Source: an uncultured Bacteroidales bacterium (lineage in GTDB: Bacteria > Bacteroidota > Bacteroidia > Bacteroidales > Bacteroidaceae). Taken from it: a stretch of 44,565 nt of DNA. The notes beneath the pieces were generated by a model, which saw nothing but the letters and a program-made list of their open reading frames with translations, ran no database searches and was not told where the DNA came from. Of the stretch, positions 6,623-22,633 are shown one piece after another. Each line of letters begins with the position of its first letter. Within the stretch, counting starts at the first letter, position 1. The position numbers were made by a program, and so were the translations under genes. The stretch is taken from the NCBI GenBank assembly GCA_902774275.1, contig CACYHN010000011.1, positions 1 to 44,565 of the forward strand, in the 5' to 3' direction.

Positions 6623-7285
6623 TTGTCTAATGTGGTAAACCGTGAAGGCGGTTTGAATCCTTCGAGCGCGGCTTTAACCTCCGTAGCTCTCCCCTGTAAT
6701 AAGGACTCTCAGCCAACAGGGGTGTCCGTAAGGTATGCATATGATGAAAAAAAGAAATGGTATGTGTTTAGAGCTACTTATGGACGTGAAACGAAAGCTT
6801 TTTCTTATCTGGAATCAAAGGGAATAGAAGCATATTTGCCTCAGCGTTGGACAGTCAAGCAGCGTGAAGGTGTCACTAAGCGTGTAAGGGAACCATTGTT
6901 GCCTAACTTGTTATTTGCTTATTGTAGTTCGGAGCAGGCAGAGATGTTTGTAAAACATACCGCCGATCTCCAGTACCTAAATTATTACTACAATCGCCTT
7001 CAGTCTGAACCTGATGGCAAGAATCCTCCACTAACCGTCAAATATGACCAGATGATGAATTTTATTGCGGTTACATCGGCCCCGAATGAACATATCCGTG
7101 TAGTGGACGCATCTAAATGTCATTTTAAAAACGGTGATAAGGTGCGTGTTACAAACGGGGCGTTTATTGGCGTTGAGGGTAAGGTGGCCAGAGTATCGGG
7201 CCAGCAGCGTGTGGTGGTTGAGATTGATGGTTTGTGCGCAATAGCCACAGCCTATATCCCCACTGCATTTCTTGAAAAAAGTTGA
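6623..7285 (+). CDS. upxY: UpxY-family transcription antiterminator (NusG-like)
   Basis: A NusG-N domain begins at KKWYVFRATYGRETKAF and continues through IEAYLPQRWTV and REPLLPNLLFAY. A KOW-like segment follows (GDKVRVTNGAFIGVEGKVARV). UpxY proteins are operon-specific processive antiterminators normally encoded first in Bacteroides capsule loci. Here the same position is held, but no polysaccharide gene follows; downstream are a TIR/FGE cluster and the RyR operon, all co-oriented. The only in-frame starts are TTG 6623, GTG 6632 and GTG 6722. The first 33 residues before VSVRYAYDEKKKWYV look unlike UpxY N-termini, so GTG 6722 is possible. No UpxZ partner is visible. Confidence 0.85.
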   Translation: MSNVVNREGGLNPSSAALTSVALPCNKDSQPTGVSVRYAYDEKKKWYVFRATYGRETKAFSYLESKGIEAYLPQRWTVKQREGVTKRVREPLLPNLLFAYCSSEQAEMFVKHTADLQYLNYYYNRLQSEPDGKNPPLTVKYDQMMNFIAVTSAPNEHIRVVDASKCHFKNGDKVRVTNGAFIGVEGKVARVSGQQRVVVEIDGLCAIATAYIPTAFLEKS

Positions 7286-7313
7286 TGTATATATTTGATT
7301 AAAACCAGCATAT

Positions 7314-7790
7314 ATGAAACTTGATATTGATCGACTTGAATCTCTGTGTAAAGATAGGGAAGAAAAGCTACTAAAGGGCTATTTTTATAATCTTGTGAAG
7401 GAGGCTGCACAAGAAAGGCCAGAGTATATAGGAAAATACACGCCGGATCTGCCTTACAAAATCGAATCGGAATATCGCGAATATCTGGATTTTCTTGTCA
7501 GACAGTTATTCCCGGAGGATGAAACGATAAGTGTAGATAACTTCCTTGACGAGGAAAAACTGCGCACTCTTATAACAGATGATGATAGAGAGATCATTCA
7601 GACAGCGTATGAAAAGGCCATGAAGAGATCCGTTGTAGAAAGGCTGACAAAAACCAATCACAAGGATGTAACTTTTTACAAAGGACTTTTGGAGGCCCAC
7701 GCCAAAGACCTTTTGTTGGTGATGCGCACTGATTTTCTGGAGGAATTGACAGGTAAGTATATTAGGAATAAGACTTTTGAGGAGGAATGA
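7314..7790 (+). CDS. Uncharacterised charged helical protein, coupled to the TIR gene
   Basis: 158 residues, very rich in Glu, Lys, Asp and Leu, with no signal peptide or membrane segment, so probably cytosolic and mostly alpha-helical. I do not recognise a family. The last codons overlap the start of the TIR-TM-FGE gene (ATGA at 7787), which predicts coupled translation and a physical or regulatory link, for example an adaptor or inhibitor of the TIR protein. That role is inference. Confidence 0.75.
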   Translation: MKLDIDRLESLCKDREEKLLKGYFYNLVKEAAQERPEYIGKYTPDLPYKIESEYREYLDFLVRQLFPEDETISVDNFLDEEKLRTLITDDDREIIQTAYEKAMKRSVVERLTKTNHKDVTFYKGLLEAHAKDLLLVMRTDFLEELTGKYIRNKTFEEE

Positions 7791-9103
7791 GTCAAGATGT
7801 TTTTATAAGCTATTCCAGTTATAATAAAGAAGCGGCTCAAGCAATTTGTCATGTTCTGGAGCAAGGGGGTATCCGGTGTTGGATGGCTCCACGCGATATC
7901 CCTTATGGTTCTCAATATGGTGATGTTATAGATGATGCAATAAAAAATTGCAAGGTTGTAGTTGTCGTTTTCTCAGAAACTGCAGCAAACTCACAATGGG
8001 TTAATGGTGAATTGAATGTCGCATTTGAAGAGCAAAAAACCATCATTCCATTCAGAATTGATAAAACGCCACTAACAGGACAGACTCGTGTCATGCTTAA
8101 TCAAAGGCACTGGATTGATGCATACCCTGATTATAAAATAAAATTTAACGATCTGGTAAAGGCTGTTTCCCAGTATTTGGGGCGGGAAATAGAGGTCAAG
8201 ACAGATGATGTTCAGGTATCTTTCATAAAAAGAGAAAGAAAGAATTGGAATAGGATTATATGGGGAGTAGCTGTTATATTGATTATAGTGGTAATAGCGT
8301 TTCTTGCTCCTTTTCCTTTAAGAAACGATACTCCCTATTCATATGACAAACAAGGGTTGCATGTAAAGAAGAAGGACATCTCTCTCTTACAACAGGATGC
8401 ATTAACAAACATATTAGACAATATGGTGTTGGTTGAAGGAGGAACCTTTATAATGGGAAATACTCCAGAGATGAATGATTATTTGACAGAGCAAGATAGT
8501 TTGAGCATAAACCCACATGAAGTTGAGTTGGATAATTATTACATCTGTAAATATGAAGTGACACAAAAACAATGGCAGGCATTTCTTTCTGTCGAAGGAC
8601 GATGCCTCTCGGATGGAGATGACAAAGCAATGGATATGCTTTCATGGGAAGATTCAAAAACATTTGCAGACACACTCGCTTTCATAACAGGATTGAATTT
8701 TTCTCTTCCTACCGAGGCTCAGTGGGAGTATGCCGCTAGAGGTGGACAAAAAAGCCATAAGTATATCTTTTCCGGTAACAATGATGCGACAGAGGTTGGG
8801 TGGACTTCATTTGAAAACCTTTCATCAGCCCATGAAGTGGGAGGGAAACGGTATAATGAGTTAGGCCTTTTTGATATGACTGGTAATGTAAGCGAATGGT
8901 GTTTGGATTATTTTCAGTTGTATTCTAAAGAAAGAGGAATAAACCCAATTGGACCGAATAGAGGGATGAACAGAGTCCTTCGTGGAGGCGATTTCCGTAT
9001 AGATAATTTCTTTGATATGAAGATAACGACCCGCTATTTTGATTCTCCTTTTGTGAATAGGAAAGGGGCTGGTCTTAGGCTTGTTATAAACATTGAGAAG
9101 TAA
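7787..9103 (+). CDS. TIR domain - transmembrane - FGE/sulfatase-modifying-factor-like protein
   Basis: A three-part architecture. Residues about 3-135 are a TIR domain: VFISYSSYNKEAA start, CWMAPRDI, and SQWVNGEL with Glu75 at the NADase position. Residues about 156-178 are a single TM helix (IIWGVAVILIIVVIAFLAPF). Residues about 212-438 are an FGE-sulfatase/C-type-lectin-like domain: MVLVEGGTFIMGN, YEVTQKQW, LPTEAQWEYAARGG, DMTGNVSEW, RVLRGG. The catalytic Cys pair of true formylglycine-generating enzymes is missing after the RGG, so the outer domain is more likely a ligand-binding fold. The arrangement suggests an outside or periplasmic sensor with an internal NAD-cleaving or signalling TIR. 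It is coupled to the 158-residue protein upstream and is part of the UpxY-led operon. Confidence 0.88.
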   Translation: MSQDVFISYSSYNKEAAQAICHVLEQGGIRCWMAPRDIPYGSQYGDVIDDAIKNCKVVVVVFSETAANSQWVNGELNVAFEEQKTIIPFRIDKTPLTGQTRVMLNQRHWIDAYPDYKIKFNDLVKAVSQYLGREIEVKTDDVQVSFIKRERKNWNRIIWGVAVILIIVVIAFLAPFPLRNDTPYSYDKQGLHVKKKDISLLQQDALTNILDNMVLVEGGTFIMGNTPEMNDYLTEQDSLSINPHEVELDNYYICKYEVTQKQWQAFLSVEGRCLSDGDDKAMDMLSWEDSKTFADTLAFITGLNFSLPTEAQWEYAARGGQKSHKYIFSGNNDATEVGWTSFENLSSAHEVGGKRYNELGLFDMTGNVSEWCLDYFQLYSKERGINPIGPNRGMNRVLRGGDFRIDNFFDMKITTRYFDSPFVNRKGAGLRLVINIEK

Positions 9104-9709
9104 ATGCGTATGAAGAGATTTGTTTTGATGCTTTTGTCATTATTCGCCTTTTGTACAGGGTTTGCGCAGGAAACTGCAGAACAGAAAGATTCTAAACGAC
9201 GTTTGTTTATTGACGATTTCCTTGCAACATATGAGGCTGCGTACGAGAATAAGGAGATTGAATATATTGAACAATTCTTCAGTGATGATGCTTTGATTAT
9301 TACCGAAACAAAAAAACTAAGTCCCGTAGGCAAGGAGATAGTTCCTTCAATAAAGAAATCACGCCCATATGAAACTATAATAGAAAACCGCAAAGAATAC
9401 ATTCGTAGATTAAAGGAAGTATTTAATTCAAATACTACAATTAAGTTAAGCATTGCGGCCAAAACAATTCGCCAACACGCTAAATACCCTGAGATATATG
9501 GAGTGAACTTTACCCAATTATGGAAAGACCAAAATGGAGGTGATAATCTTGAAAGCCAGATGCCTGGTTTTGTGTTTCTGATGATTGATTTTAAGCATTC
9601 AGAGCAAACGCCAACTATTCATGTTAGGACTTGGCAACCCAAAGACAATATTGAGAAGGAACAAGACAAGTACTTTTTAAGAGACTTTATGGTATATGAA
9701 ACGATGTGA
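9104..9709 (+). CDS. Secreted NTF2-like protein of unknown function
   Basis: A signal peptide (KRFVLMLLSLFAFCTGFAQE) precedes FLATYEAAYENKEIEYIEQFFSDDALII, the first helices and strand of an NTF2/SnoaL-like cone fold. The rest alternates strands and ends with RDFMVYETM. No catalytic motif is recognised. Translation may begin at 9104 (right after the TIR-FGE stop) or at ATG 9110. It overlaps the next gene by 14 bases, so it belongs to the same operon and is presumably a periplasmic accessory protein. Confidence 0.7.
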   Translation: MRMKRFVLMLLSLFAFCTGFAQETAEQKDSKRRLFIDDFLATYEAAYENKEIEYIEQFFSDDALIITETKKLSPVGKEIVPSIKKSRPYETIIENRKEYIRRLKEVFNSNTTIKLSIAAKTIRQHAKYPEIYGVNFTQLWKDQNGGDNLESQMPGFVFLMIDFKHSEQTPTIHVRTWQPKDNIEKEQDKYFLRDFMVYETM

Positions 9710-10577
9710 TTTTTTTAGAATCGTATTCTTATTCCAGTTATTTATCAATCTTGGATATTTGCAAGCCCAAACCCTGCGGGTCGATTTGAGCCCGGATAAA
9801 TCTAAAGTGGATCGTTCTACAAATAATGGGGTAGCTACAATTTTTTTTGATAGTAATATTGATGATTTGAGTATAGTATGTACCGATGACAATCCTGATG
9901 AACCTATTCAGAAAACGGGAAATAAATTGTGGTTTACTCATATTAACGTCAAAAACGATATTGATGTTGATGGTATTTGTTATCGTAATTATTTACTCAA
10001 AAGCAGTTCTTCGGCAGAATATTATCTTACTACTCCGGAAATAGGCTACAACCAAGTACTGTATTATACTGTTGTATTATCCAATCAGTTTGCAAAAACA
10101 ATTACGGTAGAATATTTGTTTTCAAAAACCACAATGCATGGCTTTCGATTGTCTTATGGAAAACGATTTGGTGTATATGTCAGTTATAAATGGGGAGAAT
10201 ATGTGAAAACTGGAGTTTGTATTGATGATTATCAGGAGGATACGGATGTAGGGCAAGCTGAATTTATGGGTTATAACCGCAATTCTTTTACAGCAGGAAT
10301 TCGATTTGGAGTGAATAGTAGAATCGTACCTATTTATCTCTATTTAGGTGGTGGTTATGGGGAATATGGGAGACAGTGGCAAAATATGACAGAAATTGAA
10401 AAGAATATATATTTCCATAGTGATTATCTGAATGGTTTTGAAGGAGAAATAGGATTATCTTGTATTCTCGGCAAGCACTTATATTTATCCATTGGCACCA
10501 ATGCATTATTTGGAGTTAGCAAGATGTCTTCGGATTATCAATTAGGAATAGGTTTCAACATTAATAAAAATCATTAG
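9696..10577 (+). CDS. Secreted beta-rich protein, possible outer-membrane beta-barrel
   Basis: 293 residues with a signal peptide (FFRIVFLFQLFINLGYLQAQ). The first half is a beta-rich periplasmic-type domain. The second half has alternating amphipathic strands (FRLSYGKRFGVYVSYKWGEY, YLYLGGGYGEYGRQW, LYLSIGTNALFGVSK, YQLGIGFNINKNH), typical of Bacteroidetes small OM barrels, though the end lacks a terminal aromatic residue. No family is recognised. Starts and stops are tightly packed with neighbours on both sides. Confidence 0.65.
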   Translation: MKRCDFFRIVFLFQLFINLGYLQAQTLRVDLSPDKSKVDRSTNNGVATIFFDSNIDDLSIVCTDDNPDEPIQKTGNKLWFTHINVKNDIDVDGICYRNYLLKSSSSAEYYLTTPEIGYNQVLYYTVVLSNQFAKTITVEYLFSKTTMHGFRLSYGKRFGVYVSYKWGEYVKTGVCIDDYQEDTDVGQAEFMGYNRNSFTAGIRFGVNSRIVPIYLYLGGGYGEYGRQWQNMTEIEKNIYFHSDYLNGFEGEIGLSCILGKHLYLSIGTNALFGVSKMSSDYQLGIGFNINKNH

Positions 10578-10605
10578 TTTATACATGAGAAATATGTTGA
10601 ACGAA

Positions 10606-11793
10606 ATGAGAAAGATTGTTATAATATTATGCTTTGCTTTCTCAATTGTGAATATGAGTTGTGAGTATAAGGATTTTTCACCTAAGGAGTGGGCTGTTGA
10701 TCAGTGGCTGGAAATTTCAGAAAGTGGATATGTGGCATCTAGTTATGAAGAACAGTATAAATTATCAGTATCCACGAACTACAAAATCTTTTCTGCGTGG
10801 TCTGATAAATCATGGTGTAAAACTACCGTAGATTTGAATTCGCGAATAGTGAACATTTTTATTGAGCCAAATGATGGGGCGTCCCAAAGGCATGCAATAG
10901 TAACCGTTGGTATTCAGCGTGGAAATAAATCACTCACTAGGGATTTTTCAGTATATCAGGTTGGTGGCGCTTGGGATGTTGTCGAAGGAACAGACTTTCG
11001 TATGCGTTGGTCGCAAGACATAAGTGATTCTCAAAAAGATATAATAAAAAGGCAAATACAGCAATTAGTTTTTGTGGAAGGAGGAACCTTTGTTATGGGT
11101 GCTCAGTATGAGGATAGTTCAGCTCCTTATTTTGATGAAAATGCATATTGTTCTAGCCCCCCACATAATGTTACATTGTCAGATTATTATATTGGAAAAT
11201 ATGAAGTTACCCAGGAACAGTGGGCTGCTGTTATGACCACTTCGCCAAGTCTATTTGTTGGAGGTCATCGTCCTGTCGAAAGTATAACGTGGTATGAAGC
11301 GCAGGATTATATTTCAAGATTGTCAAGCCTAACAGGGCTTGACTTCAGGATGCCTACTTCGGCACAGTGGGAATATGCAGCTAGAGGCGGTCGTTATAGT
11401 ATGGGATATAGTTATGCCGGCAGTAATAATGTAAACGATGTTGCTCATTTCATACCTGTTTTAACAGAGGAAACATCACCACTTTACACAACCATTGATG
11501 TTGGCCAGAAACGTCCAAATGAATTAGGCTTATATGATATGAATGGAAATGTTGCAGAAATGTGTAGCGATTGGTATGGTGTCGTATCAAATGTTGATCA
11601 AACAGATCCAACAGGACCGAATAAAGGGACTTCTAAAGTGGCCAGGGGGGGGTGTTTTAATGATAATGTTAGCTTTTGTTCTGTGTATTCTATTGATATG
11701 CTTCTTTATACGGATAATCTCTATACAGAAACATCTTTTAATAGCATGCGTCCTTTTTATGGTTTGCGTCTTGTGATGAAAAAGAAATATTAA
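10606..11793 (+). CDS. BACON-like + FGE-like domain lipoprotein
   Basis: A lipoprotein signal (RKIVIILCFAFSIVNMSC) favours ATG 10606 over ATG 10585. A BACON/Ig-like beta domain follows (WLEISESGY...RNFSVYQ-like pattern, about residues 30-120), then an FGE-sulfatase/C-type-lectin-fold domain from LVFVEGGTFVMGA to YGLRLVMKKKY, with YEVTQEQWAAVM, MPTSAQWEYAARGG and DMNGNVAEMCSDW. After VARGG there are Cys residues at +1 and +9; authentic FGE has them at +4 and +9, so only one position agrees. A surface- or periplasm-exposed binding protein is more likely than an enzyme. It is the second of three FGE-like proteins in this operon. Confidence 0.8.
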   Translation: MRKIVIILCFAFSIVNMSCEYKDFSPKEWAVDQWLEISESGYVASSYEEQYKLSVSTNYKIFSAWSDKSWCKTTVDLNSRIVNIFIEPNDGASQRHAIVTVGIQRGNKSLTRDFSVYQVGGAWDVVEGTDFRMRWSQDISDSQKDIIKRQIQQLVFVEGGTFVMGAQYEDSSAPYFDENAYCSSPPHNVTLSDYYIGKYEVTQEQWAAVMTTSPSLFVGGHRPVESITWYEAQDYISRLSSLTGLDFRMPTSAQWEYAARGGRYSMGYSYAGSNNVNDVAHFIPVLTEETSPLYTTIDVGQKRPNELGLYDMNGNVAEMCSDWYGVVSNVDQTDPTGPNKGTSKVARGGCFNDNVSFCSVYSIDMLLYTDNLYTETSFNSMRPFYGLRLVMKKKY

Positions 11794-11797
11794 TACA

Positions 11798-12712
11798 ATG
11801 AAACGAGTTGTTCCCTCTTATATATTATTGATAGGTAGCATACTGCTTGTTATAATATGTTGTTCAAAATATCCAAATCTAGAAGATTATTTGCATGAAG
11901 AAGACGTTGTCGTGAATGGTTTTAATGTCCATTGGCGCGCATGTATGACAAAAGAGCAACGTGAAATAGTTTGTGAAATACTTAATGATATGGTGTTGGT
12001 TGAAGGGGGCGTTTTTTCAATGGGGTCTAATCAGATTTATGATCCGGATGCAAGACCAAATGAATCACCGGTTCATTTAGTGAAGTTGACTGACTTCTTT
12101 ATTTGTGCTCATGAATTAACATTTGAGCAGATGTCTGTGCTGTTTCCTGATTTTAGTGCTGGTTATCAGAATATTAGAAAAGTCAACAATAAAAAGTTCC
12201 TAAATTATTCTTGGGAAGATTGGAATAATATCCTTAGTCAGCTCTTTTTATTGACTAACATAGAGTTTTCATTTCCTACTGAAGCACAATGGGAATATGC
12301 GGCTAGAGGGGGAAAATACTCTAAATGTTTTCTCTATCCTGGTTCTAATGACAGAGATGAAGTGTTTGCAGATGATGTGAATGGCATAGACATTACACTA
12401 CCAAACGAACTTGGAATTTTTAATATGGCAAATTGTCGCAGTGAATGGTGTGCAGATGCATATTCAGATTATTCAGATGGTCCGATGGCGATAAATCCAT
12501 ATATTACTGATGGTGATAGTCATGTTGTTCGTGGTGGATGTCATGTTTCTGTAAATATAACAGATAAATGGTCTTTGTCGAGTGTTTACTATAGTAATGT
12601 TTATGAAGATTATCGTTTTTGCCGCTCTACTTCAAGAGCTAAAGGTTATTCTTCAAAAAGTTGGTATATAGGTTGCAGACCCGTAATAAATATAAAAAAT
12701 AAAAATGAGTGA
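11798..12712 (+). CDS. FGE-like (C-type-lectin-fold) lipoprotein
   Basis: 304 residues with a hydrophobic signal ending in IICCSK (lipobox Cys). The FGE-like domain runs from ILNDMVLVEGGVFSMGSN through FPTEAQWEYAARGGKYS, FNMANCRSEWC and VVRGGCHVSV to GCRPVINIKN. The canonical catalytic Cys pair is not conserved. The opening ILNDMVLVEGG closely resembles ILDNMVLVEGG in the TIR protein, so the two domains look like diverged duplicates. It is coupled to the LRR gene by a GTGA overlap. Confidence 0.8.
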   Translation: MKRVVPSYILLIGSILLVIICCSKYPNLEDYLHEEDVVVNGFNVHWRACMTKEQREIVCEILNDMVLVEGGVFSMGSNQIYDPDARPNESPVHLVKLTDFFICAHELTFEQMSVLFPDFSAGYQNIRKVNNKKFLNYSWEDWNNILSQLFLLTNIEFSFPTEAQWEYAARGGKYSKCFLYPGSNDRDEVFADDVNGIDITLPNELGIFNMANCRSEWCADAYSDYSDGPMAINPYITDGDSHVVRGGCHVSVNITDKWSLSSVYYSNVYEDYRFCRSTSRAKGYSSKSWYIGCRPVINIKNKNE

Positions 12713-14865
12713 CTAAAAAGGTAATCATTATATCAATATATTGGGTCTTGCTTTTTTCTGCATGTTCCAAGGAACTTGCCTATGAATCCTCTTCTGAAGT
12801 TATATACAATGATGGTAAGGCAGAAGTTATTTTATTGGAAGCAGGAACACTCAAACAGCAATTGTCTCATATAGATGATATGATGCTATTGCAGTCCTTG
12901 GTTATTACAGGCCCAATTAATGGTTCAGATCTTAAATTGATTCGTGAGTTGTCAGGGGCTGATTCCATTGGAAATGAAACTAATGGTCATTTGGAGTATA
13001 TTGACCTTTCAAATGCCTACTTCGTTAAAGGTGGTGAAATCCCTTTCATATATGAAGGAGAACAATTGGAGCCATGTCCGATAGACGAAGACAATGTTAT
13101 TCCTAGATTTGGTTTCGGTTATTGTAAATTAAAAGAAATAAAGTTACCAGACAATGTTATAGGCATTGGAAGTCAGGCTTTCTATAATTGCATATCGTTA
13201 CAAACAATAAATATCCCTAAATCACTCAGGTATCTCAATCGAAGCGTTTTTTGCTATTGTAATGAGTTGAGTTCTCCTATTATTATTCCGGAATCAGTTA
13301 ATACCATAGAGGATTATACATTTTATAAGTGTACGTCATTGAAAAATGTTAAGCTACACAATAAAATCAAAACAATAGGTTATGCGGCTTTTTTTGATTG
13401 TAAAATTATTGAAAGTTTTGATAGTTCACTGTCTGGCCTAGATAGTATTGGGGCGTACTCATTTTGTAACTGTAGTGCATTGAAGCAAGCTAATTTGCCC
13501 AAAAAAATGTTGTCAATTCCTGATTATGCTTTTTATGGATGTCGGGCTATAAACCATATTTCTTTGGATAATAAAAAAATAATAGGTAATTATTCATTCT
13601 ATGGTTGTAGCGGTCTTGAATCTGTTTCTTTTCCGGATGACATATGCACTATCGGTTCATATTCTTTTGCAAAGACTAAAATAGAAGGATTGTTGTCATT
13701 GCCTAACAGTGTCAAAGAAATAGGTTATGGTGCCTTTGGCTATACAAATATTACATACTTGAAAATTAATTCAGACATTAGTTTGATAGGTGAACCCAAG
13801 GAAAATGCTATTCTTGATGGTGTTTTTACCAGTTGCAGTAAACTTACTACAGTAAAGGTGGCTGAAGGGTGCACAGAATTACATCTACCATTTAATGGAT
13901 GCAAATCACTGGTTAGCGTCCAATTACCATCAACACTAAAAAGAATAGGCGAAGAGCGTGATTTAGTTAGTAATGGGCCAGGAGGAATCTTTCAGGATTG
14001 TACATCTTTAAAAACAATTTCTTTGCCTGAGAGCCTTGAAATGATTGGATATGCAACCTTTTACGGGTGCTCTAGTTTAGAAACGGTTGTTATTCCCTCT
14101 AATGTCAAAAAGATTGGATCCTCAGTATTCTATGGTTGTTCTTCTCTTGATAGCATTGTGATACCTGAGCAAGTAACTGATATTGGACTGTTTCTTTTTG
14201 CGAATTGTTCATCTTTAACGGATGTGCGAATTGAAATGCCAATTGAGGAGATACCACAGAATATGTTTGAGAAATGTTCAAAATTATCGTCCTTTACAAT
14301 TCCCTCTTCAGTCAAGGAAATCGGTTATAGATCTTTTGAAGGAACGGGACTGACTTCTTTGATTTTGCCCGATGGTGTTACCGTAATTAAAGAGGGGGCA
14401 TTTATGGATTGCAAGTCTTTGAAAAGTGTGGTGATTCCTGATGCTGTTGAATTTATTATGACCGATGCTTTTTTTGATTGCGATAATCTTAATTTTATAT
14501 ATTTTTCAGAAGGAAGCCGTTTGAAAACAATTGGTGATGCCTGTTTTTTCCATTGCCTTTCATTGAATGACATTGTTTTGCCGGATTCTTTACAAGTTAT
14601 TGGCTCTAGCGCTTTCGATACAAGCGGATTGATACGTATTACCATCTCAAATAGTGTGACGACTATTGGTAATAATTGTTTTGCACATTGTAATCGTTTG
14701 CAGAAGGTTTCAAATATGTCATTTATACCTCAAGTAATTGATCCATCGGTTTTTTCTGGATTGTCATTGGAGGATGCTTCACTATATGTGCCAGCTGTGG
14801 CTGAAAAATCCTACGAGGATGCAGATGTTTGGAATAGGTTTGGTACGATCAACCCAATCGAATAG
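12709..14865 (+). CDS. BspA-type leucine-rich-repeat lipoprotein
   Basis: 718 residues. A lipoprotein signal (VIIISIYWVLLFSACSKE) precedes a short N-terminal region, then about 18 tandem LRR_5 (BspA/TpLRR) repeats of the form IGxxAFxxCxxLxxIxLPxSVxxI, for example IGSSVFYGCSSL and IGYATFYGCSSL. The chain closes with a typical cap (VPAVAEKSYEDADVWNRF). Such proteins sit on the cell surface and bind proteins or host matrix. The start is GTG 12709, overlapping the previous stop by 4 bases. No ATG lies near the signal sequence. It is the last gene of the first half of the island. Confidence 0.88.
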   Translation: MTKKVIIISIYWVLLFSACSKELAYESSSEVIYNDGKAEVILLEAGTLKQQLSHIDDMMLLQSLVITGPINGSDLKLIRELSGADSIGNETNGHLEYIDLSNAYFVKGGEIPFIYEGEQLEPCPIDEDNVIPRFGFGYCKLKEIKLPDNVIGIGSQAFYNCISLQTINIPKSLRYLNRSVFCYCNELSSPIIIPESVNTIEDYTFYKCTSLKNVKLHNKIKTIGYAAFFDCKIIESFDSSLSGLDSIGAYSFCNCSALKQANLPKKMLSIPDYAFYGCRAINHISLDNKKIIGNYSFYGCSGLESVSFPDDICTIGSYSFAKTKIEGLLSLPNSVKEIGYGAFGYTNITYLKINSDISLIGEPKENAILDGVFTSCSKLTTVKVAEGCTELHLPFNGCKSLVSVQLPSTLKRIGEERDLVSNGPGGIFQDCTSLKTISLPESLEMIGYATFYGCSSLETVVIPSNVKKIGSSVFYGCSSLDSIVIPEQVTDIGLFLFANCSSLTDVRIEMPIEEIPQNMFEKCSKLSSFTIPSSVKEIGYRSFEGTGLTSLILPDGVTVIKEGAFMDCKSLKSVVIPDAVEFIMTDAFFDCDNLNFIYFSEGSRLKTIGDACFFHCLSLNDIVLPDSLQVIGSSAFDTSGLIRITISNSVTTIGNNCFAHCNRLQKVSNMSFIPQVIDPSVFSGLSLEDASLYVPAVAEKSYEDADVWNRFGTINPIE

Positions 14866-14997
14866 ATAAAGTCGGGTGTTGTTAATTAGGTTGCCATGGT
14901 CGGCTGGTTCGTCCAATATATGGTTTACCAAACCAGGAAGGTGTTATATATGATCTGGATGATTTGTTCAATTGATTTATTTATAGGAGATGTATAG

Positions 14998-17196
14998 ATG
15001 GTATTCAATATGTATCTGAATTGTAGTTGCGTGTTATCAAGAATAAACGAATGGTTGGTTAAGATATCTCCAAATACCACAAGTAGGGCAATAGTTGCTA
15101 TAGTGTCGTTTTTGTTTGTGGGCTTTTATGTTTATTTTCTGCTAAGAAATAGCAGAAATGAAAAATGGAGACGTACGCTTGTCACAGGTTTTTGGACTAT
15201 TTTGATAATAGGATTTGTGGTACACTTGTTCATTCTCATGGAAGTGGGAAAACCTTGTGGACCAAAGAGTGGGCTTTCTATAGCACTGATGTCGGCAATC
15301 AGTTCGTTTGAAATGTTTGTGGGAAGCACTAAAATGTTTGATAATGGTATTCAGGAGGTTTTGTTTGGTGCCGAAAAAATTTCGCCTCATACTATAGAAT
15401 TGATTCTTCTCACAGCCGTTTATGTTGCGGCTTTAATAACTACAGCCTATCTTATTTTTGTCTTATTTCTCAGAAATATAGGTAGTCGTAGATGGTTAAA
15501 GAGACACAAGCCATCTAATGGCGATGAGGTTTATGTGTTGTTTGGAATGAACACTTATGTGAGGCATCTCATAAAAGAGTTAAGGGTTAACCATGCTGAT
15601 GCATTGATTCTTGTAGTTGATTATCTTACTGAAGAAGAGAAAAGCATTGATATTTCATTGCTTGAAAGAGTGAGGTTGTTTTTTTCATATAGAGAAGAAA
15701 CAGTTGATGGTGCTACGATTGTTTTGAAAGCAAAGAAAAATCTTGCTGAAATAAAATCAATTGATATTTGTGGCAGTATAGGATTGGAGGGTCTCAGGCC
15801 ATATCTGGATAATTGTATAAACATCTATTTGCTGCTGGATAACCAGGATGAGAATGTGGCTGCACTAAACAATCTGCTCAAAGCAGAGATAGGTTGCAAA
15901 ACAATTTACTGTCATGCCCGTAATGATGAAACCAACAAAGAAATAGAGGAGGCATACCACAAGGAGAATACAGAGGAACAGAAACATGAGACCGATAACC
16001 CGGAACCGAAAATCGAGGAACAGAAAAAAGAACTACCCGGAGTGGTATTTGTTGATTCATCCATGCTGTCGGTGCGAAGTCTGTTGGTTAATGAAAAAGG
16101 CGCGTTGCCGATTAATTATGTAAAGATTGCAAGGGATGAAACCATCGGACAGAATCTGGGTTATGTGGAGAGCGGATTCAAGGCTATGATTCTAGGATTC
16201 GGCGAGACCGGTCAGGAGGCTTTGGCTTTCTTGTATGAGTATGGCGCGTTTGTGGGCAAGAACAAGAAGAAGGCTTCGTTTGAGTGTCATGTTTATGACA
16301 GCCGTATGGATAAGATTCTGGGTTCTTATGAGGTGTCTCATCCTGGTTTGAATCCCGATGAGGCTGGGATTTATTATCACAATATGGAGATAGGCTATGC
16401 ACAATTTAGGGATTCGTTTGAGAAGGAGATTCTGGATACCAACTATGTCGTGGTTTGTGGCGGATCGGACGATATAAACCTCAAGATAGTTCAGTTCATT
16501 ATGCAGCATCTGGGCGGTAAGGATACCAAGGACAGGTTCTGCATATGGGTTAGAATGTACAATCCCAACGATATTGTAACCAAGACGATTGCCTCTATGG
16601 GAGCCAGGGAGAATGGTTGTATAAAGACATTCGGCGAGGTCGAAAAGATTTGGTTGGAGAATGTCATTTCAGATAATGATATTACCGAAAAGGCAAAAGA
16701 TTTCCATGCAAATTATCTCAAGGCCAAATACGGAGACAATATTCCTGAGGATAAAACGTGGGATTCATATGATAATACTATTCATGATTCTACAACCCAC
16801 AGAAAGGAAAGGTTGGATGCAATCCGTCAAAAAGCACAGAACTATTCCAATTATTTCCATTCTTCAACCAAAGAGGCGCTTATGGCTGGCCCATTGTTGG
16901 ATGATCCTCAGAGTATTGCCAATTGTATTCCAGTCAAATATGTTGATACTTTGTTTACCGGAGATGTCAAGACCAGGAAGATACTTGAGTATATGGCTAT
17001 TGGCGAGCATTTGCGCTGGCAGGCATCGCATGAGGTCCTTGGGTATCGCAGAGGTGAGAAGACTGATTGTTTGTTGAAGACTCACGCATTTATCAAAGAT
17101 TATACAAAGTTAGAACCCACGACGCAGCATTATGATTGGGAGGTGGTAAGGACAACTCTCGAGTGGTATGCAGACAAAAAACAACAGAAAAAATGA
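14998..17196 (+). CDS. Membrane protein with two Rossmann (TrkA-N-like) domains and a RyR-like C-terminus
   Basis: 732 residues. The N-terminus has about three or four TM helices (near 31-50, 63-82 and 135-160). A cytosolic Rossmann-like domain begins at EVYVLFGMNTYVRHLIKEL. A charged linker rich in Glu/Lys follows, then a second Rossmann with MILGFGETGQEAL (GxGxxG). The tail (YMAIGEHLRWQASHEVLGYRRG...YTKLEP...YDWEVVRTTLEWY) has the spacing of a diverged RyR repeat (HxxW, GW/GYxxG, a closing helix). It resembles a nucleotide- or ligand-gated K+ channel or sensor, but no K+ selectivity filter is seen. It overlaps the solo RyR gene by ATGA. The 131-base gap upstream has only a short stem (TGGTTT/AAACCA at 14921-14935). 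Confidence 0.75.
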   Translation: MVFNMYLNCSCVLSRINEWLVKISPNTTSRAIVAIVSFLFVGFYVYFLLRNSRNEKWRRTLVTGFWTILIIGFVVHLFILMEVGKPCGPKSGLSIALMSAISSFEMFVGSTKMFDNGIQEVLFGAEKISPHTIELILLTAVYVAALITTAYLIFVLFLRNIGSRRWLKRHKPSNGDEVYVLFGMNTYVRHLIKELRVNHADALILVVDYLTEEEKSIDISLLERVRLFFSYREETVDGATIVLKAKKNLAEIKSIDICGSIGLEGLRPYLDNCINIYLLLDNQDENVAALNNLLKAEIGCKTIYCHARNDETNKEIEEAYHKENTEEQKHETDNPEPKIEEQKKELPGVVFVDSSMLSVRSLLVNEKGALPINYVKIARDETIGQNLGYVESGFKAMILGFGETGQEALAFLYEYGAFVGKNKKKASFECHVYDSRMDKILGSYEVSHPGLNPDEAGIYYHNMEIGYAQFRDSFEKEILDTNYVVVCGGSDDINLKIVQFIMQHLGGKDTKDRFCIWVRMYNPNDIVTKTIASMGARENGCIKTFGEVEKIWLENVISDNDITEKAKDFHANYLKAKYGDNIPEDKTWDSYDNTIHDSTTHRKERLDAIRQKAQNYSNYFHSSTKEALMAGPLLDDPQSIANCIPVKYVDTLFTGDVKTRKILEYMAIGEHLRWQASHEVLGYRRGEKTDCLLKTHAFIKDYTKLEPTTQHYDWEVVRTTLEWYADKKQQKK

Positions 17197-17477
17197 ATAA
17201 GAAATATATCCCCAATCCATCGGACCTGACCGATATTGTGCTGCCCGATGAACTAACTCAACTGACCGAGGCCATTGCAGCCAATGTGCATGAGGTGTGG
17301 GCTGCGGGCCGTATTAAGGAGGGCTGGAAACACGGGCCCGAGCGCAGTGACAGTCTTAAGACGCATCCTTGTCTGGTTCCTTATGACGAACTTCCCGAAT
17401 CCGAGAAACAGTATGACAGGGAGACTGCTATGAATACCCTGAAACTGATAGTAAAATTGGGGTATAGGATTTCATGA
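17193..17477 (+). CDS. Stand-alone RyR-domain protein
   Basis: 94 residues from ATG 17193, consisting almost entirely of one RyR repeat: AIAANVHEVWAAGRIKEGW, HGPERSD, THPCLVPYDELPESEKQYDR, TLKLIVKLGY. In animals these repeats decorate ryanodine receptors; bacterial versions exist but their ligand is unknown to me. The 4-base overlap with the membrane double-Rossmann gene and the 16-base gap to the sigma-factor gene point to one operon. It may bind the same ligand as the RyR tail of its neighbours. Confidence 0.88.
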   Translation: MNKKYIPNPSDLTDIVLPDELTQLTEAIAANVHEVWAAGRIKEGWKHGPERSDSLKTHPCLVPYDELPESEKQYDRETAMNTLKLIVKLGYRIS

Positions 17478-17493
17478 TTGTGATATTCCACTT

Positions 17494-18051
17494 ATGACTG
17501 ACAGGGATATTATTCACGGATTGATTGAGAAGGACAACCGGGTAACCCGGGAGTTCTTTTTTGGCACCTGTCGTCCGTTGTTCTGCAGGATTATCGGCCA
17601 ACTGTTCAGTTATGATGTGGATTATGATGAATTTGTGAATGAGTTATATGTGTATCTGATGGATGACGATGCGCGTAAACTCAGGGAGTTTGAATACCGC
17701 AGTTCAGTTTATACCTGGCTTAAGGTATTGGCTATCCGGTACTTCATGAAGAAACGGGACCGCTTGATAGATGACAGTTCCCGAAAACCTCTATATGAAG
17801 AGCCGGTGCAGTCTGATGAGAAAGAGGATGGATTGACTGTAGAATCTGATTTAGAGAAGTTGCTGTCTCTGATGCCCAACCCAAGGTACGCCTATGTTAT
17901 CAGGAAACTGATGCTGGAGGACTGTGAGCCTGATCTGTTGGCCGATGAGATGGGTGTGACAACTGCAAATCTGTATAATATAAAACGGCGTGCGATTGCG
18001 CAACTTACACTAATCGCCCTAAACGACATTGAAGAGTATGGCAAAAAATAA
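17494..18051 (+). CDS. ECF-like sigma-70 family RNA polymerase sigma factor
   Basis: 185 residues. Region 2 is visible as FFFGTCRPLFCRIIGQLF, DEFVNELYVYLMDDD and SSVYTWLKVLAIRYFMKKRDR. After a linker, region 4 carries the helix-turn-helix segment LADEMGVTTANLYNIKRRAIAQL. It sits between two RyR-domain genes and overlaps the next gene, which starts like an anti-sigma factor, by 14 bases. It therefore probably transcribes a regulon controlled through the RyR proteins. A GTGATATTCCA motif lies just upstream of its start. Confidence 0.82.
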   Translation: MTDRDIIHGLIEKDNRVTREFFFGTCRPLFCRIIGQLFSYDVDYDEFVNELYVYLMDDDARKLREFEYRSSVYTWLKVLAIRYFMKKRDRLIDDSSRKPLYEEPVQSDEKEDGLTVESDLEKLLSLMPNPRYAYVIRKLMLEDCEPDLLADEMGVTTANLYNIKRRAIAQLTLIALNDIEEYGKK

Positions 18052-18976
18052 AAGCATATCGGACCAACTGTTGGCGGCATATCTGGATGGAAAGACCAGC
18101 CCGGCGGAAACTCTTTTGGTGCTGGAGGCTCTGAAGCAGGATAGCAGTCTTCGTGAGGCTCTGGGCATTGCACTGGCGGTTGATGATAAGGTAACGTTTG
18201 ATATCCTGCCCATGATGGAACATGCGGCCCAAAACCAGGGCAATATATGCAGCGTATTGTGCGAGGCGTTTATCCTGCATCGTAGGGATGTGCTTTTTTC
18301 AGAGAAAGATTTGCTGGAGATGGCCAATGCAAGAAACTGGCTCAAGCCGCAGGGTGCTCCGATACATTCAATCGGTCAGCTACTGGCTCATTACGGGTTG
18401 ATGGTTACGCGCAGGTACAATGCATGCACAGATGATATCCTGGGTGCCTTACAGACCAATAATGATGTGATTGTGGCCGTTGACAGTGATAAACTCTATC
18501 CCGATCGCGACGATCCAGATGATGCGGTTAATCATGCGGTCGTTGTGCTGGGCGTTGAAGGGGAGTGGGTGAGTCTGTTTGATCCATCTGGCAAGGAGAC
18601 GAATGTGAGGGTCCGGACAAAGGACTTTACAAGAGCGTGGAACGAATCAAAAAACTATATGGTACGTGTATTGCAATCTGTTGAGGATTATGAGCCTCAA
18701 CCTATAAATCTGGATGATGTTGAACTAACCGATGATTTGGTTGAACTGCGTGAAGCGATAGCCGAGAACGCTCATGAGGTGTGGGCTGCGGCGCGTAAAA
18801 AAGAGGGCTGGACATACGGAAAGGTTAGGGATGATGAACATAAGAAACATCCGGACCTGATTCCTTATTCGGCTCTTCCGGAAAGTGAGAAGGAATATGA
18901 TCGGATTATGGCTCTCAACACCATCAAGTTGGTCCGTAAACTTGGATTTGATATAGTAAAAAACAAAAAGAAATAA
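18038..18976 (+). CDS. Anti-sigma-like / C39-peptidase-like / RyR three-domain protein
   Basis: 312 residues from ATG 18038. Residues 6-45 (SDQLLAAYLDGKTSPAETL) resemble the N-terminal helices of Bacteroidetes anti-sigma factors but lack a zinc motif. Residues about 65-215 look like a C39/papain-like peptidase: Gln67, Cys71 in NICSVLCEAFIL, His166 in NHAVVVLG, Asp182 in LFDPSG. Residues about 228-308 are a RyR repeat (AIAENAHEVWAAARKKEGW...LIPYSALPESEKEYDR), close to the solo RyR protein. No signal peptide or TM is seen, so it acts in the cytosol. The layout suggests ligand binding by RyR, a peptidase step, and release of the sigma factor. That scheme is inference. Confidence 0.78.
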   Translation: MAKNKSISDQLLAAYLDGKTSPAETLLVLEALKQDSSLREALGIALAVDDKVTFDILPMMEHAAQNQGNICSVLCEAFILHRRDVLFSEKDLLEMANARNWLKPQGAPIHSIGQLLAHYGLMVTRRYNACTDDILGALQTNNDVIVAVDSDKLYPDRDDPDDAVNHAVVVLGVEGEWVSLFDPSGKETNVRVRTKDFTRAWNESKNYMVRVLQSVEDYEPQPINLDDVELTDDLVELREAIAENAHEVWAAARKKEGWTYGKVRDDEHKKHPDLIPYSALPESEKEYDRIMALNTIKLVRKLGFDIVKNKKK

Positions 18977-21824: not shown

Positions 21825-21849
21825 ACTGGTATATAGTTACCTGTTTTTT
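21825..21849 (+). terminator. Probable rho-independent terminator at the end of the island operon
   Basis: ACTGGTA, loop TATAGT, TACCTGT (one mismatch), followed directly by a run of Ts (21844-21849). The stem is weak, but the position, 46 bases after the last island gene, fits. The T-run overlaps the present fic stop codon on the other strand. Confidence 0.45.
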
Positions 21850-22633
21850 AGAATATAAAGGTTTTAGGACGGGATTGCTTCTTCTTCTGGGCAATCTCGT
21901 CTTGCATGCGGGCTGTTGCTTTCTTAAAGAAATAGGATATCAGATACTCGTCTGTGCCTTCTGTTCTGATAGCCCTGAGTGCTTCAATGTAAGCTGATTT
22001 GTCCTGTTGGGGGATGATGATGATGGGATGTCCCATCTTTTGGAGAATAAAGTTCGAGAACAGACGGCCTAACCTGCCGTTACCGTCGCGGAAAGGATGC
22101 AGATACTCATAGAATCCGTGGAATCTTGCGGCGATTATTACGGGATGTATTCTGGCAGCTTCAATCTGCTTCTGGGTTGATGCAAGCAAATCCGGAACTT
22201 TAGCAATCAATAACTCGTGTTGACCGAAAACGGTATCACCTGCAGCCATATCCTTATTGGTATATTGGCCGGGGACTGCGCCGGGATGGCGATATGAGAT
22301 AGTGTGTTGGGTAAGTAACTTGTGAGTTTTTTTAAGAAGTTGTTCAGATAGAGGATTGTTCAATTGTGAAAACAGATACTCATAAGCTTGGAAATGATCC
22401 AGTATCTCAAAAGCCTCAAACAACGTCTTACCCTTGGGAATTAGTCCTAACCCTTTCTCTTTGAGTTCACGAGTGTCATTAACCGTGAAAGAGTTTCCTT
22501 CTATGGCGCAACTATGAGCAGAGAACAGAACCTCATTGTACTGCCTCAAGTCCTCAACGGACATTCTATCAGATATGTAACTCCGATAGATATCCAGTAG
22601 TTCGTTATATTGGGCTATCTCTTTCTCAAACAT
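21848..22633 (-). CDS. Fic family protein (AMPylase-type), C-terminus rebuilt by the island
   Basis: 261 residues. It carries the Fic core HPFRDGNGRLGRLF (catalytic His, phosphate-binding GNGR) and an N-terminal auto-inhibition motif SCAIEGN of the (S/T)xxxE(G/N) type, so it is expected to be a self-inhibited nucleotidyl- (AMP-) transferase acting on a cytosolic protein. The C-terminus reads SRPKTFIF here, whereas the remnant copy beside alkD reads SRPKTSITH, showing that the last three codons and the stop now come from island DNA. It lies 47 bases after the SpoIID-fusion gene on the same strand. Confidence 0.9.
   Translation of the reverse strand: MFEKEIAQYNELLDIYRSYISDRMSVEDLRQYNEVLFSAHSCAIEGNSFTVNDTRELKEKGLGLIPKGKTLFEAFEILDHFQAYEYLFSQLNNPLSEQLLKKTHKLLTQHTISYRHPGAVPGQYTNKDMAAGDTVFGQHELLIAKVPDLLASTQKQIEAARIHPVIIAARFHGFYEYLHPFRDGNGRLGRLFSNFILQKMGHPIIIIPQQDKSAYIEALRAIRTEGTDEYLISYFFKKATARMQDEIAQKKKQSRPKTFIF
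21859..21899 (-). repeat. 41-bp direct repeat, right copy (fic 3' coding end)
   Basis: Matches 6344-6384 at 40 of 41 bases and encodes EIAQKKKQSRPKT at the end of fic. Together with the left copy it brackets about 15.5 kb in which every gene is on the + strand. It marks the right boundary of the accessory island. Confidence 0.85.

Follow-up and report, generated by a model that had tools for sequence, protein, structure and literature searches.

A single run of genes on a 44,565-nucleotide contig from an uncultured Bacteroidales bacterium (CACYHN010000011.1, assembly GCA_902774275.1; the whole stretch is here called the window) encodes a membrane TIR protein, three proteins with ryanodine receptor (RyR) domains, which bind ligands in the animal receptors, and an extracytoplasmic function (ECF) sigma factor. 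With confidence a little above even, we read this locus as a Thoeris-like alarm in which a TIR enzyme, of a type known for producing cyclic ADP-ribose alarm signals, would make a nucleotide signal and RyR domains would receive it, on a channel-like arm and on an anti-sigma arm. This suggests an immune alarm wired to the membrane and to transcription alike. The domains, residue conservation, gene order and TIR-RyR association were computed; from them we infer the chemistry of the signal and its direction.

The run comprises twelve genes on the + strand (6623-18976). Intergenic gaps range from -14 to +28 nucleotides (nt), except for one gap of 132 nt directly 5' of the P1 gene. An earlier note on this DNA, made from the sequence alone, had singled out the last four genes, P1 to P4. 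The tight overlaps that it described are both real: the P1 and P2 genes share 4 nt (ATGA at 17193), and the P3 and P4 genes share 14 nt (at 18038). The TIR gene and the four genes P1 to P4 are laid out as follows, with residue numbers for domains and, where a model was used, its predicted local distance difference test (pLDDT) score:

7787..9103, +: TIR-TM-FGE protein, 438 amino acids (aa); TIR_2 domain, hydrophobic (putative transmembrane, TM) stretch, FGE-sulfatase domain
14998..17196, +: P1, dual-RCK ion-channel-like protein with C-terminal RyR domain, 732 aa
15076..15504, +: P1 helices 27-53 and 57-82, pore-helix-like 91-108, long helix 132-169 (model, pLDDT blocks 40-74, low confidence)
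15529..15960, +: P1 first RCK-like Rossmann domain, about 178-321 (structural comparison)
16177..16683, +: P1 second RCK-like Rossmann domain, about 394-562, with GFGETG nucleotide motif (sequence and structural comparison)
16966..17190, +: P1 RyR domain, about 657-731, with His671, Trp674, His696 and Asp713 (family profile, residues)
17193..17477, +: P2, solo RyR domain, 94 aa (RyR profile, 5.4e-35)
17494..18051, +: P3, ECF sigma factor (family profile)
18038..18976, +: P4, anti-sigma-like helices, C39 peptidase fold and RyR domain, 312 aa (AlphaFold2 model, Pfam)
18062..18184, +: P4 N-terminal helices 9-49, weakly anti-sigma-like (Pfam, model)
18230..18685, +: P4 C39 peptidase domain, 65-216, with Cys71, His166 and Asp182 (structural comparison, residues)
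18686..18967, +: P4 RyR domain, 217-310, with His246, Trp249, His271 and Asp288 (Pfam, structural comparison)

Linkage of TIR and RyR genes

The 438-aa protein has a TIR_2 domain at residues 5-122 (7.4e-25), a hydrophobic stretch at about 155-176 (judged by eye) and an FGE-sulfatase domain at 211-433 (7.8e-37). Glu75 is kept in 142 of 146 aligned TIR domains. Judged by its sequence, this protein is the likely maker of the proposed signal. It has been proposed that FGE (FGS) lectin-like domains in TIR neighbourhoods serve conflict systems by sensing invaders (PMC8195603; PMC10907252, both in the portions available). No other TIR_2 match occurs in the assembly (G000; 2.1 Mb, 107 contigs, completeness rated 78%), and the gene falls in one run with the two RyR profile matches of that assembly, P2 and P4.

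RyR domains are carried by 31 of 201 genomes of the family. Of the 94 TIR_2 matches in these 31 genomes, 33 have an RyR match no more than 10 kb away, against 0.99 expected under uniform placement (expectations rest on rounded genome sizes and take no account of contig ends). Fic, an unrelated domain of similar abundance, gave 2 of 70 against 0.61 expected. The restriction-type methylase N6_Mtase gave 0 of 79 within 10 kb and 1 of 79 within 20 kb; it is a weak control because so few were expected (0.67 within 10 kb). Since TIR genes occur in clusters, counts per contig are also needed: a TIR lies within 10 kb on 18 of 40 RyR contigs and is absent from that range on 22, and those 18 are among 60 TIR-bearing contigs. 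By genome, a TIR is found in 26 of 31 RyR carriers versus 33 of 170 RyR-free genomes (Fisher p 7e-12, uncorrected for phylogeny). Two RyR matches in this survey, and several TIR matches in the phylum sample below, hold stop codons and were counted as given.

The linkage recurs among relatives of P4. Scanning contigs with the P4 alignment yielded 79 loci, from the best 80 of 154 confirmed stretches, chosen regardless of TIR. They are apparently all from Bacteroidia (Prevotella, Alistipes, Muribaculaceae, Rikenellaceae, Barnesiella and others). The two surveys overlap: the pairs L037/L072, L040/L116, L061/L143 and L065/L076 each seem to be a single contig, and L071 and L073 come from one assembly. 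Seventy-four loci were anchored; L078, L081, L109, L135 and L137 lacked an anchor and are excluded. Because many loci stop at contig ends, each neighbour count is a minimum. A TIR gene, found with a home-made profile, is present in 53 of the 74 and is the next gene downstream of the P4 relative in 21; these counts were unchanged from E 1e-4 to 1e-12. Most of the TIR genes (92 of 107) lie on the P4 strand.

The other members of the set are conserved as well. The sigma gene is directly upstream of the C39/RyR gene in 70/74 anchored loci. A P1-like gene occurs in 46/74, directly upstream in 28, when a sister group (A6, see below) is included; a strict window-type P1 profile with RyR excluded matches in 19/74, with 7 directly upstream. 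An RyR gene shorter than 260 aa is found in 29/74, which rules out that solo RyR genes are rare near C39/RyR genes. All four classes occur together in the fetched flanks of 20/74 loci, in varying order, and 15/74 have a TIR as well. The four-gene set of the earlier note is thus conserved elsewhere, at times in an order unlike that of the window, and the proteins around the sigma factor do carry RyR similarity.

M48 peptidases, WG repeats, TPR, CHAT, PrsW peptidases, LRR and nSTAND proteins also recur as neighbours; thirty neighbouring proteins were scanned with Pfam, ten from the 79-locus set and twenty from five loci of the family survey. L086 has a 92-aa frame (15735-16013) made of the first part of a TIR and then the second part of an RyR domain; it was counted once for each and may have arisen by deletion or as a chimera of the assembly. 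L066 (153-1847, genome G193) has a sigma gene and a C39/RyR gene, and the RyR part of the latter is split over two frames with stop codons; the copy seems to be broken, or else misassembled.

Further afield, 26 genomes besides that of the window carry RyR in a phylum sample of 395. Twenty of these belong to one genus (g86, family f18), where RyR domains are mostly in tandem pairs within open frames of mostly about 880-940 aa. None of the matches in this genus shares a contig with a TIR match, and 15 of the 20 genomes have a TIR elsewhere. The RyR pair of L178, the only g86 locus scanned with Pfam, is preceded by a weakly matched AAA-type ATPase. L178, L179, L183 and the g86 matches represent a separate use of RyR, with two tandem C-terminal domains as in animal Repeat12. 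Outside f18, five of six RyR genomes have a TIR within 7 kb of the RyR match, and two of the five are of one genus; the match of G289 is under the cut-off (21.8 bits) and that of G296 is partial. At three of these loci a TIR gene adjoins, on one strand, a gene for a TrkA_N-type Rossmann and RyR protein of 561-611 aa, with gaps (first-start reading) of +4, +23 and -11 nt respectively:

L180, 7706-10658: two-gene TIR and RyR/Rossmann membrane-protein pair
L181, 3977-9024: two-gene TIR and RyR/Rossmann membrane-protein pair
L182, 6545-11774: two-gene TIR and RyR/Rossmann membrane-protein pair

These pairs look like a minimal two-gene form, a TIR with an RyR-channel-like protein. By eye, L180 and L182 show a GD-P-like pattern at the stretch where a K+ filter is expected, without TVGYG.

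The RyR pocket and its possible ligand

The RyR profile (PF02026) matches P2 with 120 bits and P4 with 108.2 bits, both over the curated cut-off of 27.4. P1 alone scores 16.7 bits (E 0.0085), under the cut-off, and phmmer against solved structures gives an RyR match at only 0.15. The weak tail of P1 is nonetheless genuine, because the profile of the P1 family gives 1.6e-18 against solved RyR domains and because His671, Trp674, His696 and Asp713 are kept in 17/17 aligned P1 sequences (window included). The corresponding residues of P2 are His33, Trp36, His58 and Asp75 (spacing +3, +25 and +42 from the first His). In P4, His246, Trp249, His271 and Asp288 are kept in 54, 54, 33 and 54 of 54 sequences (alignment A4, comprising 53 of the 74 anchored relatives and the window). 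RyR domains in three of the four genes, including the tail of the 732-residue protein, were therefore rightly recognised in the earlier note, by profile match and by pocket residues.

The same spacing is found in the phage protein RyDEP, a glycosidase that cleaves 2'/3' cyclic ADP-ribose (2'/3'cADPR). Its H75, W78, H100 and D117 are ligand residues, and H75/D117 form the catalytic dyad (PMC13232231, a preprint, here and below in the part available). Six of eight RyDEP homologues bind 2'/3'cADPR (PMC13232231). Two of the three TIR-paired RyR proteins outside the family have the standard spacing; in L180 the second His and the Asp are one residue later. The RyR domains of P1, P2 and P4 would thus bind the TIR signal through the conserved His/Trp/His/Asp pocket. 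The 836-aa protein encoded at L056 (443-2953) begins with an RyR domain, and its long remainder matched none of the local profiles; its gene adjoins PrsW, C39/RyR and sigma genes.

It should be noted that the pocket might serve an ordinary ligand. RyR domains could sense an adenine nucleotide (ATP, ADP or NAD) as a readout of stress or energy, the neighbouring TIR proteins having another task. Adenine-containing ligands are present in solved structures of human RyR3 Repeat12 (PMC13232231); complexes with ATP, ADP and AMP-PCP are among our fold-comparison matches; GsuK is activated by ADP and NAD+ (PMC3510474, in the portion available); and in f18 genomes RyR occurs on contigs that have no TIR. 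However, this leaves unexplained the TIR enrichment, the TIR genes directly downstream in 21/74 loci and the abutting TIR/RyR pairs, and we consider it unlikely.

Somewhat less likely again is a role as a brake, in which RyR domains, solo P2 above all, remove or sequester the TIR signal against self-harm and are not receivers. The dyad residues of RyDEP are retained in P2, P1 and P4, and two phage homologues of RyDEP act as sponges (PMC13232231). However, a receiver accounts better for the fusion of RyR to a dual-RCK channel-like protein and to a protein with anti-sigma-like and C39 parts, and the other RyDEP homologues tested showed no cleavage despite high conservation (PMC13232231). Brake and receiver roles could coexist. 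It is improbable that shared genomic islands simply carry RyR and TIR genes along independently of each other: the patchy occurrence of RyR in the family and the many other conflict-type neighbours would fit, but restriction-type methylases, weak control as they are, are not enriched near RyR, and operon-like adjacency and overlaps on one strand recur in distant families.

The proposed channel-like and sigma-factor arms

The fold of P1 matches GsuK (top row), TrkA, DMI1 and CASTOR over residues of about 176-623, which corresponds to two RCK domains; the VIA-align comparison tests little beyond residues 157-623. The two Rossmann domains of the "double-Rossmann" membrane protein in the earlier note are upheld, and the protein is recast as a dual-RCK, ion-channel-like one. 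The canonical K+ filter TVGYG is absent from the P1 sequence, and the profile of P1's own family matched no channel by sequence. CASTOR-type channels are not known to have TVGYG either.

Window-type P1 sequences were aligned as A5 (16 of 41 P1-like genes over 600 aa, and the window); the sister group A6 holds 24, and L090 is in neither. The A6 profile matches DMI1 at 2.6e-4 and CASTOR at 1e-3 by sequence. A6 was first reached through profile A3, which held two sequences of a similar kind (L059 and L067). The kinship of A6 to P1 thus rests on a common layout, RyR-like residues and the A3 profile rather than on a separate search.

The earlier note pictured a cascade running from P1, as a membrane nucleotide-binding protein, to transcription. 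The sigma-linked RyR operon stands; the start at P1 probably does not, the TIR protein encoded at 7787-9103 being the likely maker. P1 as a mere membrane nucleotide sensor atop the cascade was rejected, as an RyR tail and a channel-type fold suit a receiver better. Given its modelled fold and its RyR tail, P1 more probably receives the signal or acts as an effector alongside the sigma branch, and P1 and P4 would be parallel receivers of a signal made elsewhere.

P3 is an ECF sigma factor, in line with the earlier note: its family profile matches a sigma-E factor at 1.3e-7 over positions 7-181, covering the sigma2 and sigma4 regions. P4, modelled with a pLDDT of 91.8, joins a weakly anti-sigma-like N-terminus (zf-HC2, 0.014) to C39 and RyR domains; this architecture from the earlier note is borne out, and the arrangement is conserved elsewhere. 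Neither a zinc-ligand motif nor a transmembrane helix was seen in the sequence and model of P4. C39 peptidases have an oxyanion Gln upstream of the Cys. In the C39-like site as first described, the fold and the invariant Cys71 and His166 hold across the 54 P4 sequences and Asp182 is Asp in 41; Gln67, which is Gln in only 4 of 54, is not supported as part of the site, and Asn69 is kept in 49. Weak matches to PADLOC CARF models (0.005 and 0.0099) span the C39/RyR boundary. From the gene pairing, P4 is proposed as a putative anti-sigma switch for P3.

The course of the signal may then be as follows. Probably on infection, the membrane protein TIR-TM-FGE, or in related loci another TIR, would be triggered and would convert NAD+ to an ADP-ribose-type signal, as the TIR family and the conserved Glu75 imply. 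The signal would bind the RyR pockets of P1, P2 and P4, if identity of residues and spacing with RyDEP is a guide. In P1, to judge by the fold, binding could shift the dual-RCK gating ring, which would lie next to a short membrane part resembling a pore, and so open or close a path for ions. In P4, as the pairing with P3 suggests, the RyR ligand might control the C39 domain or its contact with P3; the sigma factor would be released and would turn on genes, likely including its own operon. Solo P2 may buffer or remove the signal.

The rest of the run and comparison with known systems

The remaining seven genes of the run precede P1:

6623..7285, +: NusG-family protein (NusG 3.4e-10, KOW), heading the same-strand run
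7314..7790, +: 158-aa protein without an assigned family; ATGA overlap with the TIR gene
9104..9709, +: 201-aa protein with weak NTF2-like similarity (E 0.019)
9696..10577, +: 293-aa outer-membrane beta-barrel-like protein (1.7e-6)
10585..11793, +: FGE-sulfatase domain protein (FGE 1.4e-38; weak BACON similarity)
11798..12712, +: FGE-sulfatase domain protein (7.6e-19)
12709..14865, +: BspA-type leucine-rich-repeat protein (LRR_5 3.7e-133)

The NusG-family gene is separated from the gene for the 158-aa protein by 28 nt. Its product has close relatives in four further loci (L046, L060, L080 and L122) and may be an operon-specific antiterminator. At L046 (13299-14045) and L060 (7531-8205) the NusG-family gene adjoins the sigma and C39/RyR genes. 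The 158-aa protein gave no match in the Pfam scan. Its family has 26 members including that of the window; ten are directly followed by a TIR gene and five by a short RyR gene, in their own direction, as if the family were an adaptor common to both. In a 306-aa protein of L063 (9703-10623) the 158-aa family part (80-182) is fused to an RyR domain (211-300). A search for a promoter motif by word and spaced-word enrichment in 67 operon starts versus 107 other upstream regions gave A/T-rich words only. Downstream of the run, on the opposite strand, is a Fic-domain gene (21848-22633), one of three Fic matches in the genome.

The locus resembles Thoeris in having a TIR with a conserved Glu and a nucleotide-type receiver in the same run, and in partial ThsB matches (best 6.7e-7). 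The PADLOC scan covered P1-P4, the 158-aa protein and the TIR protein, and the best rows for the TIR were not ThsB; they were the TIR parts of SAVED_TIR (1.6e-11) and PDC-S66 (1.3e-10). Thoeris receivers are SLOG or macro domains (PMC12948488, in the portion available), whereas here they would be RyR, and the window adds sigma, C39 and dual-RCK parts. The locus is not classed as a Thoeris member because no ThsA match was found among P1-P4 (2023 library, from which newer Thoeris types may be missing). We file it among the TIR nucleotide-signal systems, as a variant with RyR, sigma, C39 and dual-RCK parts.

RyDEP is of the same Pfam family, with the same four residues at the same spacing. RyDEP proteins are phage anti-defence proteins, whereas the RyR proteins of the window are encoded by bacterial genes, two of the three as fusions, in a run with a TIR gene. 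P2 also matches the putative ryanodine receptor of Bacteroides thetaiotaomicron (PDB 3nrt, 4n05 and 6uag; 3nrt at 7.5e-37), for which the literature search found no publication text. P1 resembles GsuK and CASTOR/DMI1 in having hydrophobic helices followed by two RCK domains; the likeness is one of fold, and P1 differs by its C-terminal RyR domain and the missing TVGYG. As in ECF sigma/anti-sigma pairs, the sigma gene directly precedes, and in the window overlaps, its partner gene; unlike the usual partner, P4 has C39 and RyR domains and, in sequence and model, shows none of the zinc-ligand and membrane features looked for above.

Among the papers listed by a search mostly outside the subscription literature, no publication stood out that joins bacterial RyR to TIR or to a sigma factor, the RyDEP preprint dealing with phage proteins. 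A comparative-genomic study by Burroughs and colleagues (2015), on conflict systems centred on nucleotides, may mention bacterial RyR domains. If the receiver reading is true, RyR domains are host receivers of TIR signals, and TIR immunity gains an ion-channel-like effector and a sigma-factor output; the 94-aa P2, or the confidently modelled P4, would be a small soluble test case for RyR binding of cADPR isomers. A possible tie between cADPR and the animal ryanodine receptor has been raised as an open question (PMC13232231). More tentatively, and at rather less than even confidence, a TIR enzyme with an RyR-domain, RCK-gated channel may be the direct bacterial counterpart of that link as proposed in animals, to which Bacteroidales would add a second RyR receiver, the anti-sigma/C39 protein, as a transcription arm.

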